56,537 nucleotides of DNA from Bacteroidales bacterium. GTDB lineage: Bacteria; Bacteroidota; Bacteroidia; Bacteroidales; Lentimicrobiaceae. The notes below the pieces were generated by a model. It was not told the DNA's origin, did not search any database, and saw only the letters and a list, made by a program, of their open reading frames with translations. Both the position numbers and the translations under genes were made by a program. Of this stretch, positions 27,115-36,595 are shown in pieces (the stretch's first letter is position 1; each line of letters starts with the position of its first letter). Location: the NCBI GenBank assembly GCA_024636955.1, contig JAGXGB010000008.1:1-56537 (forward strand). Direction: 5' to 3'.

Positions 27115-28368
27115 ATGACATTATTTTCTAGCGGCCGAAAATTCTGGGCCATCGTGATCATCATAGTGATTTTAATAACCGGTTCTTCCTACTATTTTAC
27201 CCGGGACAAAAAGACTGAGGATTCCATAACAACCAAGGTAGTTTTTGGAGATTTCAAAATTGATGTGACTACAAGCGGCGAGCTTGAAGCAATGGATTCT
27301 GAGAATATATCGGGTCCTTCAGGTCTACGTGAAGTGAGAATATGGCAGGTTCAGATAAGTGATATTGTTCCTGAAGGCACATTAGTTGATTCAGGCCAAT
27401 ATGTGGCTACCCTCGACCGTGCTGAGATTACCAACAGAATGAAAGACCTGGAGAGTGAACTTGAGAAGCTTGAATCGCAATTCATCAAAACCAAGCTCGA
27501 CACATCAATGGATATGCGGGCTGCCCGTGAAGAATTGATTAATCTGAAGTATGCCCTTGAAGAAAGAACCATAACAGTTGAGCAATCAATTTATGAGCCA
27601 CCCGCTACACAACGACAGGCAAAGATTGAACTGGAGAAAGCTAAGCGTTCCTTTGAACAGGCTGAAAAAAACTATAAGCTTCGTTCAGATAAAGCAAGTG
27701 CTAATATGCAGGAAGTTTCAGCATCGTATACCCAGGCCCAGCGACGACTTGAGCAGATAAGAGAAGTATTGAGTGGCTTTACAATTACAGCCCCTAAATC
27801 AGGGATGGTTATTTATAAGCGTAATTGGGATGGAAGCAAAATGGGTGCAGGCTCAACCATGGGTTCATGGGAGAACGTGGTAGCAACATTGCCTAATTTA
27901 AAGGAAATGATTTCCAAGACTTTTGTAAACGAGATTGACATAAGTAAAGTAAAAACCGGTCAGAAAGTACAGATCAGCGTTGATGCTTTTCCTGAAAGAA
28001 AATATTCAGGCACAATTACAGAGGTTGCCAATATAGGTGAGCAAATGCGTAATACAAATGCTAAGGTTTTTGAAGTGAAGATTCGTGTACATGAATTCGA
28101 CAGTATACTTCGTCCGGCAATGACAACCAAAAATATTATAAATACCTCCGTAATACCTAAAGCATTATACCTTCCTATTGAAAGTGTGCATAATTCTGAT
28201 TCCCTGACTTATGTTTATCTTACTGCCCGCAAAGTAAAGCAGCAGATACGTACGGGTTCAACTAATGAAAACCAGATAATTGTTAAAGAGGGACTGAAAG
28301 AAGGTGATGAAGTATATCTGTCAGCTCCTGAAGATGCAATGGACTGGAAACTCAATGAACTATTGTAA
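27115..28368 (+). CDS. HlyD/MacA-type periplasmic adaptor of an efflux system
   Basis: A 417-residue membrane-fusion protein. An N-terminal membrane anchor (about residues 9-27) is followed by a lipoyl-like half (VTTSGELEAMDSENISGPSGL). A long helical hairpin rich in Glu, Lys and Gln follows (about residues 85-215). Then come the second lipoyl half (FTITAPKSGMVIYKRNWDG) and a beta-barrel/membrane-proximal domain (KVKTGQKVQISVDAFPERKYSGTITEVA). It links an inner-membrane pump to an outer-membrane channel. The MacB-like permease starts 12 bases downstream and the TolC-like gene follows, forming one operon. Confidence 0.9.
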   Translation: MTLFSSGRKFWAIVIIIVILITGSSYYFTRDKKTEDSITTKVVFGDFKIDVTTSGELEAMDSENISGPSGLREVRIWQVQISDIVPEGTLVDSGQYVATLDRAEITNRMKDLESELEKLESQFIKTKLDTSMDMRAAREELINLKYALEERTITVEQSIYEPPATQRQAKIELEKAKRSFEQAEKNYKLRSDKASANMQEVSASYTQAQRRLEQIREVLSGFTITAPKSGMVIYKRNWDGSKMGAGSTMGSWENVVATLPNLKEMISKTFVNEIDISKVKTGQKVQISVDAFPERKYSGTITEVANIGEQMRNTNAKVFEVKIRVHEFDSILRPAMTTKNIINTSVIPKALYLPIESVHNSDSLTYVYLTARKVKQQIRTGSTNENQIIVKEGLKEGDEVYLSAPEDAMDWKLNELL

Positions 28369-28380
28369 GGAGAGCAAACA

Positions 28381-29745
28381 TTGGAACGACGATTATACAT
28401 TCTTTCTATAGCCATTGAGGCCGTTATTGCCAATAAGTTCAGGTCAATACTTACGGCGTTGGGCATCATCTTTGGTGTTGCCGCTGTTATTGCTATCCTC
28501 GCAATAGGTAATGGAGCCCAAAAGGAGATCCTTGATCAAATGAAACTTGTTGGCGTTAACAACATTATTATAATGCCCAAGGATGAATCAACTTCAGGGA
28601 ATAAAAACGAAGAAGAGCAGAAGGGGAAGGAAGCATCCCAAAAATTCTCACCGGGGCTTTCAATAAGAGACGCTAATAGTATTGCAGAGATAATCCCCAC
28701 GGTAAGTAAAGTAAGTCCTGAGGTCATTTATGAGTCAGTTATTATCTCAGAAGGTGTTAATACTTACGGTAAAGTAAGCGGGGTGACACCTGATTTCTTT
28801 CAGGTTTTTAATCTGGAATTGGAAAAGGGTGAGATGTTCAATGAAGAGCAAATGATACAGGGGAAAGCTGTTTGCATTTTAGGGGCTACCATAAAAAATA
28901 AACTCTTTCCAAAAAGTGACCCTATTGGCAATTATGTTAAATGCGGGTCAGTGTGGCTTAAAGTAGTAGGAGTGTTGCAGAATAGAGCTGTTACAACAGA
29001 GTTATCAGAGAATATGGGCATCAGCGATTACAATATGATGGTATATTCGCCGATTCAGACATTGCTATTAAGGTATCGCGACAGGTCAGTAATAACAACT
29101 TCTATGGTAAGGGGAAGTGGTAGTGGTGGGACTGTGGTAATGGGAGATAACATTATGACTTTTGGGTCATCAGGTTCAGGAGGCAGTGATGAAAATAACC
29201 AGATTGATAAAATTGTTGTCCAGGTTAAAGAAACATCACATATAACCAGAACAACTGAAATAATTAACCGAATGCTTAAACGGCGTCATGCAGGAGTTGA
29301 TGATTTTGTAGTTCAGGTGCCTGAGCTGCTACTTAAGCAGGAACAGCGTACTAAAGATATTTTCAATATTGTGCTTGGTGCTATAGCAAGTATATCATTA
29401 ATTGTTGGTGGCATTGGTATTATGAACATCATGCTGGCATCAGTGATGGAACGAACAAAGGAAATTGGGATCAGAATGGCAACAGGTGCTACTCGTAAAG
29501 ACATTACCTTCCAGTTCCTGAGTGAAGCAACTATGATTAGTCTTACAGGCGGTATTATTGGCATATTGCTGGGATTAGCACTTGCAAGAGTAATTACAGG
29601 AGTAACAGGTATTCTTACAATAGTATCGATTTCTTCCATAATTATATCTTTTGGAGTATCTGCTTCAGTTGGTATAGCATTTGGCTATATGCCTGCACGC
29701 AAAGCATCACTTCAGGACCCGGTAACCTCACTTCGCTATGAATAA
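28381..29745 (+). CDS. MacB/FtsX-type ABC transporter permease
   Basis: A 454-residue permease with the MacB layout: a first transmembrane helix (LTALGIIFGVAAVIAILAIG), a periplasmic MacB core (about residues 50-315), and three C-terminal helices of an FtsX domain (from IVLGAIASISLIVGGIGIMNIMLASVMERTKEIGIRMATGATR). There is no nucleotide-binding domain: neither Walker A nor an ABC signature is found, so the ATPase must be a separate protein, and no gene for it lies in this operon. Gly/Ser-rich inserts (SGSGGT, SSGSGGS) interrupt the core at about residues 245-270. The start is TTG at 28381, preceded by a GGAG-like site. The stop overlaps the next start by 8 bases. Confidence 0.88.
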   Translation: MERRLYILSIAIEAVIANKFRSILTALGIIFGVAAVIAILAIGNGAQKEILDQMKLVGVNNIIIMPKDESTSGNKNEEEQKGKEASQKFSPGLSIRDANSIAEIIPTVSKVSPEVIYESVIISEGVNTYGKVSGVTPDFFQVFNLELEKGEMFNEEQMIQGKAVCILGATIKNKLFPKSDPIGNYVKCGSVWLKVVGVLQNRAVTTELSENMGISDYNMMVYSPIQTLLLRYRDRSVITTSMVRGSGSGGTVVMGDNIMTFGSSGSGGSDENNQIDKIVVQVKETSHITRTTEIINRMLKRRHAGVDDFVVQVPELLLKQEQRTKDIFNIVLGAIASISLIVGGIGIMNIMLASVMERTKEIGIRMATGATRKDITFQFLSEATMISLTGGIIGILLGLALARVITGVTGILTIVSISSIIISFGVSASVGIAFGYMPARKASLQDPVTSLRYE

Positions 29746-31249
29746 ACTATTAACTGGCAGCTTGCGTAAAATTTTAACCCTCAGGAAGCTATTATTAATA
29801 ATGGTATTGCACCTGGCAATTGGTTTTGCTACCGCCCAGTCACCCGCAATAATGACACTTGATGAGGCTATTGAGATTGCCTTAAGGCAATCGCCTGATG
29901 CACTGACAGCAATGCATCGTTTCAGAAGTAGCTATTGGGAATTCAGGAATTATAAGGCAGAGTTATTGCCTTTGTTGTCGCTAAATGCTACCATACCCGG
30001 ATTAACTAAAGATGAAATACTATCGCAGGAAGGTGACAGATTTATATCTGTAAACTATAGTAGGTATTCCGGCGGGCTTTCCATGTCACAGAACATTGGG
30101 TTAACCGGAGGAAGTATATCATTGAATTCTAACTTACAGCGTTTGGATGTATTTAGGGAAACCACCACCACATCCTATTCATCAGTGCCAATCAACATTG
30201 AATTAGTACAGCCTTTATTTGGTTTTAATGAATTTAGATGGCGTAAGAGAATTGAACCTTTGAAGTACAATGAAGCAGAACGCCGATATCTTGAAGATGT
30301 TGAACAGGTGCGGATCAATGCGACCGAAGCTTTTTTTGGACTGCTTAATTCCCAGATAAAGCTCAGGATTCAGCAAACAAACCTAGCCAATAATGACACG
30401 CTATACCAAATTGCCCGTGGCAGGTTCAATATTGGTACTATAGCTGAGAATGAATTATTGCAAATTGAGCTCAGCCTTCTAAATGCCAGGGCCGCCGTAG
30501 AGCAGGCTAAACTTGATATCAGTGTGAGCAGTTTCAATCTGTTTTCTTACCTAAGGATACCCGAAGATCCTAACATGATTCTATCAGCTCCTGAACCTCC
30601 GGAATTCAAGCCGGTAGATGCCCAGAGTGCAATAAACTTTGCAAGAGACCACAGGTCGCAGGCACTTGCTTTTGAGCGCAGAATTATACAAGTAGAAAGC
30701 AATGTAAACAGGGCAAGAAGTACTAATCGCTTCAGCGCCAACCTTAATGCAGCATATGGTTTGGTGAATTCAGCACCTCAATTAAGTACTGTATATAACG
30801 ACCCGAAAGAGCTTCAACAGTTATCCATTGGAATAAGTATTCCAATTCTCGATTGGGGTTTTGGAAAAGGACAAGTTAAACTTGCTGAATCACAGTTAGA
30901 ACTGGAAAGAACTTCAGTACAGCAGAATAAGATTGATTTTGACCAGGAAGTATTTATCAAAGTAATGCAGTTCAATATGCAGCCAACCCAGTTTGCAATT
31001 GCTGCAAAAAGTGATACTGTCGCCCTCAAACGTTATGAAGTAACAAAACAGAGATATTACATAGGCAAAATTGGAATCACCGACCTTAATATCGCTCAGA
31101 ATGAAAAGGATAATGCCCAGCAGGGATACATTTCTGCCTTGGCAACATATTGGCGCAGCTACTTTGAGATACGAAAGCTAACACTTTACGATTACGTCGC
31201 AAATCGCCCGCTTGTATTTAACTTTGATGATATCCCTGATGTGGAGTAA
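29738..31249 (+). CDS. TolC-family outer-membrane efflux channel
   Basis: A 503-residue outer-membrane factor. A long-n-region signal peptide (ending near FATAQ) is followed by TLDEAIEIALRQSPDALTAMHRF, the standard start of OEP repeats. The chain shows two alternating coiled-coil/beta units, with VEQVRINATEAFFGLLNSQIKLRIQQTNLANN in the first. The ending is IGKIGITDLNIAQNEKDNAQQGYISALATYWRSYFEIRKLTLYD, typical of the family. The coding region overlaps the permease by 8 bases, so coupling is likely. It completes a tripartite export system whose substrate cannot be predicted. Confidence 0.92.
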   Translation: MNKLLTGSLRKILTLRKLLLIMVLHLAIGFATAQSPAIMTLDEAIEIALRQSPDALTAMHRFRSSYWEFRNYKAELLPLLSLNATIPGLTKDEILSQEGDRFISVNYSRYSGGLSMSQNIGLTGGSISLNSNLQRLDVFRETTTTSYSSVPINIELVQPLFGFNEFRWRKRIEPLKYNEAERRYLEDVEQVRINATEAFFGLLNSQIKLRIQQTNLANNDTLYQIARGRFNIGTIAENELLQIELSLLNARAAVEQAKLDISVSSFNLFSYLRIPEDPNMILSAPEPPEFKPVDAQSAINFARDHRSQALAFERRIIQVESNVNRARSTNRFSANLNAAYGLVNSAPQLSTVYNDPKELQQLSIGISIPILDWGFGKGQVKLAESQLELERTSVQQNKIDFDQEVFIKVMQFNMQPTQFAIAAKSDTVALKRYEVTKQRYYIGKIGITDLNIAQNEKDNAQQGYISALATYWRSYFEIRKLTLYDYVANRPLVFNFDDIPDVE

Positions 31250-31301
31250 GTCATCCTTCCAAATAGCCGTAACTTTATAGCTAAATAGCCCGTAACTTCT
31301 T

Positions 31302-31922
31302 TTAGCTCGGTTGATATCCTTGGTGTGGAGTTATACCAGAAGCACCTTTATGCCAATCGGCGGGTGATTCTTCCCCTGTTTCTTCATAATACTGGAGTGC
31401 ATCAATCATGCGGAGTGTTTCATTGATACTTCGCCCCAGTGGAAGGTCATTAACCAATTGGTGCCGAACGATGCCTTGCTTGTCAATTATGAACAAACCC
31501 GGATATGCAACAGGGTCACCATCGAAATCAAGCCTGTTGTCCTCTTCATCATATTCATAAGTACCGGCCATCATATCGTAGTTTTCCGCAATAGTTTTTG
31601 CCAGATCAGATACTAATGGGAATGTAACTCCTTTGATACCTCCTTCAGTTGGATCAATTTGCAGCCATGCATGATGCGAATGGGCTGAATCAACTGAGCA
31701 CCCTACAACAGCTACATTGCGACTTTCAAATTCAGGCAATCTCCTTTGAAAAGCTAGTATTTCTGTTGGACTAACGAACGTGAAATCAAGCGGGTAGAAG
31801 AAAAATACTACATGTTTTTTTCCTATATATTGGCTTAAAGAGAACTTTTCAGTGATCTCTTCACCGTTAATAACTGCATCCGCTTCAAAAAGGGGAGCCT
31901 TTTTACCAACTAATACTGACAT
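31302..31922 (-). CDS. Peroxiredoxin-fold protein lacking both catalytic cysteines and the catalytic arginine
   Basis: A 206-residue protein clearly homologous over its full length to typical 2-Cys peroxiredoxins of the AhpC/Prx1 group: FYPLDFTFVSPTEI, VVGCSVDSAHSHHAW, GLFIIDKQGIVRH and NDLPLGRSINETLRM. The expected peroxidatic Cys is Ser51 (codon AGT), the resolving Cys of the C-terminal xVCPAxW motif is Ser186 in EESPADW (codon TCA), and the conserved active-site Arg is Pro141 in VAYPGLF. Pro44 and Thr48 remain. The only Cys is Cys75. Peroxide reduction by the usual thiol mechanism is therefore not expected. A chaperone, sensor or regulatory role is possible but unproven. The gene has its own promoter (31951-31980) and an undisturbed frame. 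Confidence 0.88.
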   Translation of the reverse strand: MSVLVGKKAPLFEADAVINGEEITEKFSLSQYIGKKHVVFFFYPLDFTFVSPTEILAFQRRLPEFESRNVAVVGCSVDSAHSHHAWLQIDPTEGGIKGVTFPLVSDLAKTIAENYDMMAGTYEYDEEDNRLDFDGDPVAYPGLFIIDKQGIVRHQLVNDLPLGRSINETLRMIDALQYYEETGEESPADWHKGASGITPHQGYQPS

Positions 31923-31950
31923 AATGTTGAGGTGTTGTTTTTATGATATA

Positions 31951-31980
31951 CAAACTTACGTAAATATTATAAGCAAACAA
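31951..31980 (-). promoter_or_regulatory. Promoter of the peroxiredoxin-like gene
   Basis: On the minus strand a TAAGTTTG -7 box (31951-31958) lies 19 bases downstream of a TTG element (31978-31980). This matches the Bacteroidota -33/-7 arrangement. The ATG is at 31922, giving a leader of about 20 bases. Confidence 0.6.
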
Positions 31981-32070
31981 GTTTTGATTTTTGTATGCAT
32001 TTCAAGAATTTATTATTCGATAACTATTTCTAATTTTAACAGCTACGGAAATAAACATTTATAGACAGAT

Positions 32071-32098
32071 AGGCATTAATAGGCATTAATAGGCATTT
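32071..32098 (+). repeat. Decamer repeat (aggcattaat), 2.8 units
   Basis: Two exact copies of aggcattaat and a third partial copy, aggcattt, lie head to tail in the gap between mazG and the peroxiredoxin-like gene. Confidence 0.75.
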
Positions 32099-32137
32099 CG
32101 AAATAACTACAGAGCTAATTAACTTTCTTGAACTTAT

Positions 32138-32178
32138 TTGAAAAATCCGATTATTCATTGATCCTTCGGATTTTTCAA
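32138..32178 (-). terminator. Terminator of mazG
   Basis: A perfect 13-base stem (32138-32150 and 32166-32178) with a 15-base loop lies 12 bases past the mazG stop codon. The stem base is A/T-rich, so the transcript would end in a partly U-rich arm. Confidence 0.6.
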
Positions 32179-32189
32179 CTTATCTGCAA

Positions 32190-32957
32190 TTAATTCTGTT
32201 TTTTAGCTTCATTCCAGTAAACATCAAGCTCAGCGAGTGTCATATCATGCATTGACTTACCTGCTTCATTTACTTTGTCCTCAATATACTTAAAGCGTTT
32301 AATAAACTTGCGGTTGGTGCGTTCAAGTGCGTCTTCGGGATTTACATTAATGAAGCGTGCATAGTTAATCAGGGCAAAAAGGAGGTCGCCAAATTCATCT
32401 TCCACTTTATCATGAGAACCATTGATCTTTTCATACTCCAGTTCTCCAAGTTCTTCCTGCACTTTTTCCCATACCTGTGCTACATTTTCCCAATCAAAGC
32501 CTACTCCCCTTGCTTTTTCCTGAATACGGTATGCTTTCACCATAGCCGGCAGTGAGCCTGGAACACCGCTGAGCACTGAAGTGCGACCTTCGGTCATTTT
32601 GATCTTCTCCCAGTTGTTTTTTACAGCTTCGGCGTCATCAGCTTTAAAATCACTATAGATGTGAGGATGTCTTCTGATTAGCTTTTCTGAGATTGAATTA
32701 AGCACATCGGTTATGTCGAAAGCTTCTTGCTCAGAGGCTATCTTGGAGTAAAACACCAGATGGAGCATCAAATCGCCAAGTTCCTTTTTAATTTCATCCA
32801 TGTCCTTCTCAAGAATAGCATCACTGAGTTCATACATTTCCTCGATGGTAAGGTAGCGGAGTGTATCAAAGGTTTGCACCTTATCCCAGGGGCACTTTTC
32901 CCTTAATTCATCCATGATAGTAAGCAGTCTTCCAAAAGCTTCGAGTGATTTATCCAT
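32190..32957 (-). CDS. mazG: MazG nucleoside triphosphate pyrophosphohydrolase
   Basis: A 255-residue all-alpha NTP pyrophosphatase that hydrolyses (d)NTPs to monophosphates, cleaning the nucleotide pool. The N-terminal MazG domain shows CPWDKVQTFDTLRYLTIEEMYELSDAI and KKELGDLMLHLVFYSKIA, which hold the EEXXE and EXXD magnesium-binding motifs. A second copy follows (EELGELEYEKI ... VEDEFGDLLFALINYARF). The start was placed at ATG 32957. A TTG at 32978 in the same frame lies within a perfect -7 promoter box (32976-32983), so it cannot be translated from that promoter. Confidence 0.94.
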   Translation of the reverse strand: MDKSLEAFGRLLTIMDELREKCPWDKVQTFDTLRYLTIEEMYELSDAILEKDMDEIKKELGDLMLHLVFYSKIASEQEAFDITDVLNSISEKLIRRHPHIYSDFKADDAEAVKNNWEKIKMTEGRTSVLSGVPGSLPAMVKAYRIQEKARGVGFDWENVAQVWEKVQEELGELEYEKINGSHDKVEDEFGDLLFALINYARFINVNPEDALERTNRKFIKRFKYIEDKVNEAGKSMHDMTLAELDVYWNEAKKQN

Positions 32958-32975
32958 CAGCCATTTAAGTTTTTG

Positions 32976-32983
32976 CAAAGTTA
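32976..32983 (-). promoter_or_regulatory. -7 promoter box (TAACTTTG) of mazG
   Basis: An exact TAnnTTTG match on the minus strand, 18 bases upstream of the mazG ATG. It overlaps the alternative TTG start and so decides the start site. Confidence 0.65.
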
Positions 32984-33005
32984 GTAAACCTAACCTGCCG
33001 TTTTG

Positions 33006-33013
33006 TATTTTTG
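33006..33013 (+). promoter_or_regulatory. -7 box (TATTTTTG) of the acyloxyacyl hydrolase gene
   Basis: An exact TAnnTTTG match on the plus strand, divergent from the mazG promoter 22 bases away. It gives a leader of about 80 bases to the ATG at 33102, or about 20 bases to the GTG at 33039. Confidence 0.5.
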
Positions 33014-33101
33014 TTTGCTCATCACATAGCCAGGAAAAGTGTTAACTTTTGAACAAGAGAGTCGTAAGTGCAGGTATAATCCAACAGGATTAAGGCGGCT
33101 C

Positions 33102-34274
33102 ATGCAGCAATCTTTAACAAAGTTGATCAGTAAATGCCTTTCCATCGGTTTATTAATCTTATTCTCCCTTTTAGCTTCAACTTCAATACATGCTCAAAAG
33201 TATCATAAATATCAGGCTCCTAATCTGATGTTCGAAGCCCGTGCTAATTATGGAATACTAATTGCTCACCATCTCGAAATGGAGATTTATAATGCCCATC
33301 TTCCATCATTTGAATTTAGTATAGCACGATCAACGTATGGTAAGCAGCACTGGGAAGCGCTGTATAAGTATCCGGTAACTGGGCTTACATACTGGAACGC
33401 CTGGTTAGGAGACCCAAACACATTAGGTCAGGCGCATGGTTTAATGCCTTTTATTTCATTTCCTATAGTAAAGCAAGATGCTACGGAGCTTAATTTTCGT
33501 TTGGCAGCTGGAGTTGGTTATTTAACTAAAAGATTTGATCGGATTGAGAATTATAAATACATTGCTATTGGTTCGCATATTAATGCTGCAATAAATCTGA
33601 TGGTTGAGTATAGGTGGAAACCTCTGAAGCATTTGCAGGTTTTTGGAGGTGTGCAATTAATGCATTTTTCAAATGGATCAATGAAAACGCCAAACTATGG
33701 CCTAAACATTCCTTCACTCTCAGGGGGTGTTGCATTCCGGCTTAATAAAGAAAACCCATATATCAAAAGAGCTGTAAGGCCTAAACTTACGATGTTTGAA
33801 TTTGATGGTAGGGATTACCTGGAAGTAAGATTGAGTTCTTCTTTCGGCATGAAAGATATTGGTGAAATTGTAAGTGAACGGTTCTATGTTACTGCCGGTT
33901 CTATTGGTCTGCTCAAGAGTCTCGGATATAAAAGCAAAGCCGGATTATGTATTGACTTATCCTACGATGGCTCTGATGCCAGGTTTATAGGTGAAAAGGG
34001 TGTAGCTTACAATAATAACCTTCAACTTGTTAAACCAGGTGTAGGGATAATGTATGAAGTGGTGTTGTCGCGCCTTTCATTTCCTCTGACGTTAGGATTT
34101 TATACCGGGGGAAAATATAAGAGCGAGGGCATATCATATTACAAAATGGGAATTCAATATATAGTCCAACGCAATTTCTTTGCTTCCGTAACACTAAAAA
34201 CCCACTTTGCAAGGGCTGATTATGTTGCTTTGGGAATTGGATACAGATTTAGAGTGAAGCAGTATTTTATTTAG
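33102..34274 (+). CDS. Acyloxyacyl hydrolase, PagL-like lipid A deacylase family
   Basis: A 390-residue outer-membrane protein. The start at ATG 33102 gives a clear signal peptide (MQQSLTKLISKCLSIGLLILF...SIHAQ). A GTG at 33039 in the same frame would add 21 uncharacteristic residues. The middle contains LQVFGGVQLMHFSNGSMKTPNYGLNIPSLSGGVAF, the PagL-type motif with His188 and Ser190 of the catalytic pair. The acidic residue expected about 14 positions after the His in Pseudomonas PagL is an Asn here. PagL removes the 3-O acyl chain of lipid A. The chain is about twice the length of PagL, with an extra C-terminal beta-rich half (about residues 225-390), so substrate and activity are uncertain. 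Confidence 0.75.
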   Translation: MQQSLTKLISKCLSIGLLILFSLLASTSIHAQKYHKYQAPNLMFEARANYGILIAHHLEMEIYNAHLPSFEFSIARSTYGKQHWEALYKYPVTGLTYWNAWLGDPNTLGQAHGLMPFISFPIVKQDATELNFRLAAGVGYLTKRFDRIENYKYIAIGSHINAAINLMVEYRWKPLKHLQVFGGVQLMHFSNGSMKTPNYGLNIPSLSGGVAFRLNKENPYIKRAVRPKLTMFEFDGRDYLEVRLSSSFGMKDIGEIVSERFYVTAGSIGLLKSLGYKSKAGLCIDLSYDGSDARFIGEKGVAYNNNLQLVKPGVGIMYEVVLSRLSFPLTLGFYTGGKYKSEGISYYKMGIQYIVQRNFFASVTLKTHFARADYVALGIGYRFRVKQYFI

Positions 34275-34302
34275 GTTGAGAAGATTTTAAAAATAATAAA
34301 AA

Positions 34303-35046
34303 ATGACCCTTTCAAGAGTTTCCATTTTGGCACTTTTGTTATTAATAGCTTCCGCCGGATGCAAGCGCGAGAAGCTAGATGATTGCTATACAAATGCTGG
34401 GGAAGTTGTAATGGAAGACAGGTGGAGTGCCTACTTTGAAACTATAAACCTGTATGATGATGTTAACCTTGTGCTTGAGCAGGGCGACGGTTATTCAATC
34501 AGGGTTGAGGGAGGAAAGAACTTACTTGGTGCTGTTGTAACTGAAGTGAAAGACAGTGTACTGCACATTAATAATACAATGAGTTGCAATTGGGTTAGAA
34601 GCTATGACCATGAACTAACGGTTTATGTCACGTCTCCATCACTTTACAATATACGGTATGAAGGTAACGGTAATGTCAGTACAAACGGAAGGATGGTTTT
34701 TGATATTTTGGAAATAAATGCATGGGGTGGGGGCGGTTCAATTAATATTGATGTGGATTGCCAGACACTGAATTTGGGACTTCACTACGGCACCGTTGAT
34801 TTTAACATTAAGGGCAAGTCATCGATGACAACCATATATGCTAATAGTTATGGCCCTTTTTATTGTGCAGAGTTAAATTCAGATATTGTTTATATCACCC
34901 ATAATGGAACTAACGACTGTTATGTCCATGCCAACCATATTTTTGGAGCTGATATCACATCAGTAGGTGATATTTACTATTCCGGCAATCCATTCGATCT
35001 CAGTTGCAATATTACCGGTTCAGGCAAACTATATAAAATTGAGTAA
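34303..35046 (+). CDS. Head-GIN domain (DUF2807) lipoprotein
   Basis: A 247-residue predicted lipoprotein with a lipobox ending ASAGC (Cys20). The rest is a right-handed beta-helix-like DUF2807 'head GIN' domain: FETINLYDDVNLVLEQGDGYSIRVEGGKNLL, followed by short strands with many Gly, Asn and Asp, ending in CNITGSGKLYKIE. This family is widespread in Bacteroidota outer membranes, and its role is unknown. It starts 28 bases after the PagL-like gene and is probably co-transcribed. The next gene, proS, converges on it. Confidence 0.85.
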   Translation: MTLSRVSILALLLLIASAGCKREKLDDCYTNAGEVVMEDRWSAYFETINLYDDVNLVLEQGDGYSIRVEGGKNLLGAVVTEVKDSVLHINNTMSCNWVRSYDHELTVYVTSPSLYNIRYEGNGNVSTNGRMVFDILEINAWGGGGSINIDVDCQTLNLGLHYGTVDFNIKGKSSMTTIYANSYGPFYCAELNSDIVYITHNGTNDCYVHANHIFGADITSVGDIYYSGNPFDLSCNITGSGKLYKIE

Positions 35047-35083
35047 ATGTTATTAGCCACCGAACGATGGCTATAATAATTTT

Positions 35084-35152
35084 GCTAATAAAGCTCTTGG
35101 GATTTCAACTCTACGTTTACTAATAAGCTCTTGCGAAAACAACTCTACCTTT
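35084..35152. repeat. Imperfect duplication of the proS 3' end
   Basis: The last 34 bases of proS (35119-35152, encoding [10 protein letters not shown] and the stop) have a near copy right downstream (35084-35118), with about 28 of 33 positions identical and one extra base. On the minus strand the copy would read KRRVEIPRAL without a stop. It lies in the convergent gap after the head-GIN gene. Confidence 0.6.
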
Positions 35153-36595
35153 CGAAGGGCGACCAGTAAGAATACATGTACCTTCATCAAGTTTCGAGTT
35201 TAATGGTATACAGCGGATAGTTGCTTTTGTTTCTTCTTTAATCCTCTGTTCTGTTTCAGGAGTGCCATCCCAATGAGCATAAATAAAGCCGCCTTTATTA
35301 TCGAGCAGGTCAACAAATTCATCCCATGAATCAGCCTTTGAAGTTTTACTTTCTCTGAAGTCAAGCGCTTTCTGATACAGGTTGTCCTGTATATTTATAA
35401 GCAAGTGCTCAATCTTGGTTTCGATATCTGACAACTGGTAAACTGCTTTTTCAAGTGTATCACGGCGTGATACTTCAACTGTGCCGTTCTCAAGATCGCG
35501 AGGCCCCATTACTAATCTTACAGGGACCCCTTTGAATTCATATTCATTAAACTTCCAGCCCGGTTTGTATGTATCGCGTTTATCGTACTTAACAGAAATC
35601 CCTTTATCCTGAAGGTTTTTCATGATCTGCTCTGCCTTTTCAGAGATAAGCGCTAATTGATCATCAGTTTTATAAATAGGAATGATGACTACCTGTGTAG
35701 GAGCTAATTTCGGAGGCAGTACAAGACCATTATCATCAGAGTGAGCCATGATAAGCGCGCCAATCAATCGGGTTGAAACTCCCCATGAGGTTGCCCAGAC
35801 ATATTCAAGTTTGTTCTCCTTGCTAAGGTATTGCACTTCAAAAGCTTTAGCAAAATTCTGCCCAAGGAAGTGGGAAGTGCCTGCCTGAAGTGCCTTACCA
35901 TCCTGCATAAGGGCTTCAATACAATATGTTTCGATAGCTCCGGCAAATCTTTCATTAGGTGATTTGGTTCCCCTTAGAACCGGTAGTGCCATCCAGTTTT
36001 CTGCAAAGTCAGCATAAACTTCAAGCATACGTTCAGTTTCTTCAACAGCTTCTTCAGAAGTCGCATGAGCCGTATGCCCTTCCTGCCATAGGAACTCAGC
36101 AGTGCGAAGGAATAAACGCGTACGCATTTCCCATCGTACAACATTTGCCCACTGGTTTATAAGAAGCGGCAAGTCACGGTATGATTTAATCCATGTACGG
36201 TATGTATCCCATATAATTGTTTCAGAAGTTGGTCGTACAATAAGTTCTTCCTCAAGTTTAGCTGATTCATCCACTATTACTCCTTTTCCATCAGGATCGT
36301 TCTTTAAACGGTAGTGCGTAACAACGGCACATTCCTTAGCGAATCCCTCAACATGACTAGCTTCTTTACTAAAAAATGACTTAGGTATGAACAAAGGGAA
36401 GTAAGCATTAACATGGCCGGTATCTTTAAATTTCTTATCGAGGGCAGCCTGCATCTTCTCCCAGATAGCATATCCATAAGGTTTGATTACCATGCAACCT
36501 CTTACAGCTGAGTTTTCAGCCATATCGGCCTTGAAAACCAAGTCATTGTACCATTGAGCATAATTCTCATCACGGGAAGAAAAATCTTTTGCCAT
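35120..36595 (-). CDS. proS: Prolyl-tRNA synthetase (eukaryote/archaea-like type)
   Basis: A 491-residue class II synthetase that charges tRNA-Pro. This short form lacks the bacterial INS editing domain and has the extra C-terminal zinc-binding-type domain, as in many Bacteroidota. The class II motifs are visible: motif 2 in [32 protein letters not shown], and motif 3 in [26 protein letters not shown]. The anticodon-binding domain follows ([12 protein letters not shown]). The extreme C-terminus is GRVVFARAY, and a partial copy of its coding DNA lies just downstream. A -7 box is at 36656-36663. Confidence 0.97.

Follow-up and report, generated by a model that had tools for sequence, protein, structure and literature searches.

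What becomes of a peroxiredoxin gene when both catalytic Cys residues and the active-site Arg are gone: is it misread, is it decaying, or is it kept for something else? This question is raised by a reading frame in a 56,537-nucleotide stretch of DNA from a Bacteroidales bacterium (the whole of the stretch analysed is referred to as the window). A preliminary description of the frame, made from its sequence, reported Ser51 in place of the peroxidatic Cys, Pro141 in place of the active-site Arg, and Ser186 in place of the resolving Cys; when the sequence was read again, the frame, its strand, and all three substitutions were as described. The gene (prx) and its conserved neighbours are located as follows.

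27115..31249, plus strand: genes for HlyD-type membrane-fusion, MacB-type permease, and outer-membrane efflux (OEP) proteins; conserved left neighbours
31302..31922 (including the stop codon), minus strand: prx, pseudoenzyme gene, 206 amino acids, assigned by Pfam, PDB sequence search, and predicted fold
32190..32978, minus strand: mazG; conserved right neighbour

The window protein descends from typical 2-Cys peroxiredoxins

By sequence and predicted fold, the window protein is a typical 2-Cys peroxiredoxin (AhpC/Prx1 type). Its score with the Pfam AhpC-TSA model (PF00578) is 106.5 bits, above the gathering cut-off of 26 bits, and a PDB sequence search matches residues 3–202 to 6khx, a peroxiredoxin from Akkermansia muciniphila (E = 2.1e-72); that is, the homology is nearly end to end, as the motif alignment in the preliminary description had proposed. 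The best NCBIfam model, PRK15000, scores 178.9 against a cut-off of 301; because two canonical orthologues and the canonical paralogue also miss this cut-off (226.5, 226.2, and 199.6, respectively), NCBIfam cut-offs do not discriminate here. An AlphaFold2 model of the monomer, based on a 51-sequence alignment, has a pLDDT of 87.7 (a first model, from 15 close sequences, was poor, with a pLDDT of 49.6). When the predicted fold was used in a structure search, 6khx was again the top PDB match (TM 0.94, rmsd 0.9, 55% identity); the 51 sequences are mostly canonical homologues, so the model informs on the family fold more than on member-specific details. Judged from its sequence, the window protein is AhpC/Prx1 in descent but lacks the features that define the mechanism of that enzyme.

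Three congeneric species carry prx without its catalytic residues

The codons at the three catalytic positions have the following coordinates, computed from the residue numbers.

31770..31772, minus strand: AGT, Ser51, peroxidatic Cys position (motif match at 31761–31787)
31500..31502, minus strand: CCG, Pro141, active-site Arg position
31365..31367, minus strand: TCA, Ser186, resolving Cys position

The active-site triad of peroxiredoxins is reported to be Thr/Cys/Arg (PMC8300647); Pro44, Thr48, and Glu54 are retained in the window protein. A scan of a genome collection yielded 346 relatives, the best 80 of which (approximately 68% identity or more) were aligned with the window gene and two paralogues from the window's genome to give 83 sequences; the canonical set used below (n = 78) excludes the paralogues L081 and L083. 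All 78 canonical homologues, four congeners included, have Cys, Arg, and Cys in the three columns. Among the 83 aligned sequences, the peroxidatic Cys is missing only from the window protein and two others: L001 from G006 (Bacteroidales bacterium UBA5507; 81% identical to the window protein) and L004 from G018 (SRR1561999 bin 88; 87% identical). In the order peroxidatic Cys, Arg, and resolving Cys, these have S/P/T and S/G/T, respectively. The peroxidatic position is Ser in all three members of the group; the Arg is replaced by Pro (window and G006) or Gly (G018), and the resolving Cys by Ser (window) or Thr (G006 and G018). The codon for Ser51 is AGT in all three, the codons at the Arg position are CCG, CCC, or GGT, and those at the resolving position are TCA, ACT, or ACA; the use of different codons for Ser51 (AGT) and Ser186 (TCA), pointed out previously, is confirmed. 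Cys75 had been regarded as oddly placed; it is not peculiar, since 82 of the 83 aligned sequences have it, canonical ones included, and it is uninformative.

Sequencing or assembly error is excluded as the source of the substitutions in the window, since changes of this class also occur in the orthologues from two further assemblies of the genus. Recoding as selenocysteine or of a stop codon is likewise excluded: where the two Cys residues would be encoded, the codons read AGT, TCA, ACA, or ACT, never TGA.

The orthologue is found in seven of the 19 genomes of the genus at 75–100% identity (a family-level search gave the same 19 genomes), and in four of these, G005, G009, G012, and G017 (L006, L003, L002, and L005, respectively), it retains C/R/C. 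It was not found in the remaining 12 of the 19, eight of which are at least 95% complete, which implies that the gene can be lost when it is not needed. In both codon and protein trees (15 of the 22 coding sequences prepared), the three dead copies form a group apart from the remaining twelve sequences (ultrafast bootstrap, 100%). The Ser/Ser/Pro clade that the preliminary description had suggested looking for therefore exists as one clade that lacks both Cys residues and the Arg, but the exact residues vary within it (S/P/T and S/G/T in the sister species). In the simplest history, the peroxidatic Cys would have been lost on the stem of this clade and the Arg and resolving Cys sites would have diverged at the same time or afterward.

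We also scanned samples of the order Bacteroidales with an exact pattern, DFTxVSPTE, which detects Ser but no other replacement and requires the rest of the motif to be intact. With an AGY codon for Ser, it occurs in two of 393 genomes, those of the window and G018 (G006 is outside the sample), and with a TCN codon in none of the 393; the control motif with Cys occurs in 37 of 60. A wide family of Ser-peroxiredoxins across the order was not found in this sample.

prx is flipped in the same three species

Many of the fetched Bacteroidales loci have one arrangement in common (27115–36595 in the window): genes for a membrane-fusion protein, a MacB-type permease, and an outer-membrane efflux protein, followed by prx, mazG, and proS. 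This recurrence identifies prx as a long-standing neighbour of the efflux genes. Between mazG and proS the window also encodes a PagL-like outer-membrane protein (33039–34274) and a DUF2807 protein (34303–35046), both in place in the sister loci and fast evolving.

In the usual layout, mazG and proS are on the strand opposite to the efflux genes and prx. We counted orientations in the loci of the best 80 of the 346 relatives; in 28 of these, the fetched stretch reaches neither an efflux gene nor mazG. Where an efflux gene is in reach, prx shares its strand in 43 of 43 canonical loci; where mazG is in reach, the two are on opposite strands in 37 of 37. Only prx among these genes is reversed in L001, L004, and the window, where it is opposite the efflux gene and on the same strand as mazG, an orientation that occurs in none of those 43 and none of those 37 canonical loci. 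Through the flip, prx is no longer exposed to possible read-through out of the efflux genes. No inverted repeats that could explain the flip flank prx in the three loci; L001 has the sole long inverted pair, which is AT-rich with 75% complementarity. The flip may have been an inversion in place or the insertion of a copy in inverted orientation.

A promoter for prx itself had been proposed, and the following element is located upstream.

31951..31980, minus strand: match to the consensus TTG-N19-TAAGTTTG, which we take to be a Bacteroidota-type promoter

The consensus is also matched upstream of prx in G018, and in G006 only its TAAGTTTG part is present; a match also arises in 21 of 2000 shuffled versions of the upstream region (270 bases). 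A scan for sigma-70 promoters found five, compared with a mean of 4.2 in shuffles, that is, no excess. The proposed promoter is plausible from the consensus match.

Two features of the interval between mazG and prx are recorded here. In the window, three head-to-tail copies of TAGGCATTAA, the last shortened to TAGGCATT, are located at 32070–32097. In G006, a 275-residue reading frame on the same strand (L001:4103–4930) separates the two genes; by eye, its product resembles a ZIP-type metal transporter.

The dead copies are under strong purifying selection

Fourfold sites are saturated among the three clade species, with differences at 63–67% of the comparable ones, and yet the proteins differ at only 23, 35, and 37 of 190 residues, compared with 168–173 expected if the fourfold rate applied throughout. 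We fitted a branch codon model (our own script) to 190 codons of 15 sequences; with omega set to 1 in the clade, lnL falls from -4945.5 to -5146.7, a cost of 201 units. The same constraint on the stem lowers lnL by only 2.5, so the stem informs little on selection. With dS saturated, the value of omega itself is unreliable and only the rejection of neutrality is used; we leave the comparison of clade and background omega uninterpreted, with dS saturated and one branch at its bound. Despite the saturated synonymous divergence, no stop codon or frameshift interrupts the frame in any of the three species. Neutral decay is excluded by the 201-unit cost of omega = 1 and by the conservation of residues while fourfold sites are saturated.

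Thus, the catalytic residues are gone and the gene is kept under purifying selection, as in a pseudoenzyme. The preliminary description had preferred a pseudoenzyme to decay or error and had proposed dN/dS as a check; with three assemblies, one clade, and omega = 1 rejected in that clade (within the limits set by saturation on omega itself), its preference is supported.

The clade proteins evolve faster than their canonical orthologues, which suggests that constraint is somewhat relaxed or shifted, yet it remains comparable with that on mazG: prx is 80.5–88% identical within the clade and 92–95% identical between canonical congeners, and the corresponding values for mazG are 82–89% and 84–88%. 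Dividing the clade-to-canonical distance by the distance within the clade gives 1.60 for prx and 1.47, 0.89, 1.46, 1.02, and 1.99 for five neighbour genes; by this comparison, no clear burst of change is detected on the clade stem.

Other residues and the C-terminal tail have changed in the clade

At the level of at least 95% of the canonical sequences, 116 columns are conserved; all three clade members keep 95 of these columns and all three change eight (51, 84, 89, 117, 118, 141, 173, and 186), three of which are catalytic. Four control trios of canonical sequences have 0, 1, 0, and 0 such columns; the paralogue L083 alone departs at 21. At the 90% conservation level, N88Q and tail position 206 join the shared changes. 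The probability for catalytic positions among the changed ones (P = 0.002) is post hoc and is given no weight, the gene having been picked for those losses. None of the 78 canonical sequences has the His84, Ile89, Met117, or Met118 of the clade; the clade's Gln88, Ile173, and His81 occur in four, three, and five of them, respectively. Residues 81–84 are H-S-H-H in all three clade members and Y-S-H-W or Y-S-H-F in the four canonical congeners.

The C-terminal tail stops at residue 193 in G018 and at residue 194 in G006; the window protein, whose tail is altered, falls short of its canonical congeners in length by five or six residues. The active site varies further (P44H in G018, W190F in G006, and Phe49 replaced by Ile in G006 and Leu in G018); Phe49 is retained in the window protein. 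Segment 150–164, which we take to be the dimer interface region, is largely invariant in the alignment.

The genomes encode other peroxiredoxins

The presence of a normal AhpC in the same genome, a further check that had been suggested, is confirmed: the window's genome encodes a typical 2-Cys peroxiredoxin (L083/L112; DFTFVCPTE) that is 60% identical to the window protein, together with a DFTPVCTTE peroxiredoxin (L081) and further AhpC/TSA proteins. We take the DFTPVCTTE motif to mark the 1-Cys, Prx6-like type. No typical 2-Cys paralogue was found in G018 (96% complete) or G006 (78% complete). In G018, the three peroxiredoxins that were read have DFTPVCTSE (two) or DFTPVCTTE (one), and other AhpC/TSA proteins are present; G006 has one of each motif (loci for both genomes: L126–L129, L117, and L118).

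Cytochrome bd is encoded by 18 of the 19 genomes of the genus and rubrerythrin-family proteins by all 19, the window's included in both counts. The explanation that peroxide defence was dropped for want of exposure to oxygen is not supported by these distributions.

A retained protein with a probable function other than peroxide chemistry

The clade gene descends from an active-type peroxiredoxin, has lost its catalytic residues, is flipped, and has been retained; the fold is probably used for something other than peroxide chemistry. The ancestor was an ordinary typical 2-Cys peroxiredoxin gene located between the efflux genes and mazG, as in many Bacteroidales. In the lineage of the three congeneric species, prx was reoriented, the peroxidatic Cys replaced by Ser, the active-site Arg and resolving Cys lost, and the C-terminal tail changed or lost; the shared His84, Ile89, and Met117-Met118 were gained, and strong purifying selection has acted since. 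Without the peroxidatic thiol, neither the sulfenic acid nor the disulfide between the peroxidatic and resolving Cys residues could form. With the reactive thiol missing, we would expect the protein not to reduce peroxides through the peroxiredoxin mechanism; also, it would be kept in a reduced-like fold, because the disulfide that drives local unfolding cannot form. For a nematode 2-Cys peroxiredoxin made without both Cys residues, activity is reported to be undetectable (PMC6617597).

The oligomeric state can be approached from the tail and Phe49, which by motif would correspond to F45 of Escherichia coli AhpC. In that enzyme, truncations of the tail are reported to prevent formation of decamers, and F43 and F45 are located in the ring interface (PMC5124861). 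Loss of the tail together with loss of Phe49 in two clade members suggests weakened rings; the case is weaker for the window protein because Phe49 and most of the tail length are kept. Weakened rings and a largely invariant segment 150–164 make a dimeric binding protein the first choice. We favour, as the most probable reading of this locus and with some reserve, a flipped prx without its Cys and Arg residues that is kept in the three species as a pseudoenzyme, serving as a non-catalytic binding or scaffold protein; a dimer would be likelier than a ring, and this last step is the less certain. A bolder version, to which we give somewhat less than even odds, is that prx was flipped, stripped of its catalytic residues, and then fixed with a new shared surface for binding a specific partner or ligand (His84, Ile89, and Met117-Met118), that is, that it is a natural neofunctionalised pseudo-peroxiredoxin.

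The preliminary description had put forward a chaperone, a peroxide-insensitive sensor partner, or a structural protein as the function; a ring chaperone and an obligate partner of a normal 2-Cys peroxiredoxin are each weakened by these results. The ring chaperone, a holdase in which a permanent reduced-like decamer binds unfolding proteins, has a precedent in Leishmania mTXNPx, whose reduced decamers are reported to be heat-activated chaperones without overoxidation (PMC6368585), and the top 50 of the structure search with the predicted fold include laboratory Cys-to-Ser mutants of 2-Cys peroxiredoxins (5zte, 2z9s, and 3sbc). However, G006 and G018 lack the C-terminal tail, truncation of which abolishes decamers in E. 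coli AhpC (PMC5124861), and the window protein has an altered one; the counterpart of interface residue F45 is Phe in the window protein but has been replaced by Ile or Leu in the other two; and mTXNPx is described as binding its clients via N-terminal extensions (PMC6368585), whereas the N-terminus of the window protein is short. We consider such a ring unlikely. A hetero-oligomer, in which the dead protein mixes with the cell's own active typical 2-Cys peroxiredoxin and tunes it, is conceivable in the window's genome, where L083/L112 could be the partner; no such paralogue was found in G018 or G006, with 96% and 78% complete genomes, respectively, and we consider a partnership of this type quite improbable.

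Changed catalysis, in which Ser51, Cys75, or the His residues at 81–84 support another reaction or bind a metal, would make use of the H-S-H-H sequence that replaces Y-S-H-W or Y-S-H-F of the canonical congeners and of the retained Thr48 and Glu54 next to Ser51. However, Cys75 and His83 are ancestral, and five of the 78 canonical sequences also have His81, which leaves His84 as the only one of these His residues confined to the clade. Nothing in the neighbouring genes suggests a substrate, and we regard another reaction as very unlikely. Least credible of all is a gene decaying after loss of its peroxidase function, which would fit the faster evolution, variable tails, and extra active-site changes but not three frames without a stop or frameshift, the rejection of omega = 1 by 201 lnL units, or within-clade conservation about equal to that of mazG.

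Meaning and comparison with known systems

Peroxiredoxins are credited with roles in chaperoning and signalling besides the removal of peroxide, and these are hard to separate from the chemistry because one Cys governs both. A prx kept after loss of the peroxidatic Cys, resolving Cys, and Arg is a natural separation-of-function variant, for which the active-type orthologues at the same locus in congeners serve as controls. The flip and the loss of the peroxidatic Cys are confined to exactly the same three species, which offers a case in which to study how an enzyme gene is rewired and reused. If the neofunctionalised pseudo-peroxiredoxin is real, it would part the structural roles of the fold from its chemistry. 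Pseudoenzymes are already known as a kind; in the open-access literature searched, most of which was judged by title, we recognised no report of a natural dead peroxiredoxin in bacteria.

The closest structural relative, the typical 2-Cys peroxiredoxin 6khx, has its fold, length, PxxxT motif, and Glu54 in common with the window protein, which differs by the absence of the peroxidatic Cys, resolving Cys, and active-site Arg and by its altered tail. The congener orthologues (group A, i.e., those of G005, G009, G012, and G017) are 75–78% identical to it over the aligned part and have the same neighbours as far as these were fetched; they differ in that they keep C/R/C and the full tail and are on the opposite strand relative to those neighbours. 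Laboratory mutants have Ser for Cys, as in the window protein (from the entry titles, 5zte C119S, 2z9s Cys52Ser, and 3sbc C47S); the C119S site is the peroxidatic position by PDB sequence alignment, and we take the other two sites to be the same. Unlike the window protein, these are engineered and, according to each title, changed at one site. Natural pseudoenzymes are exemplified by alpha-lactalbumin and delta1-crystallin (PMC7435893): these are unrelated proteins with known functions, but in each an enzyme fold is used without catalysis, as is proposed here for the clade prx.
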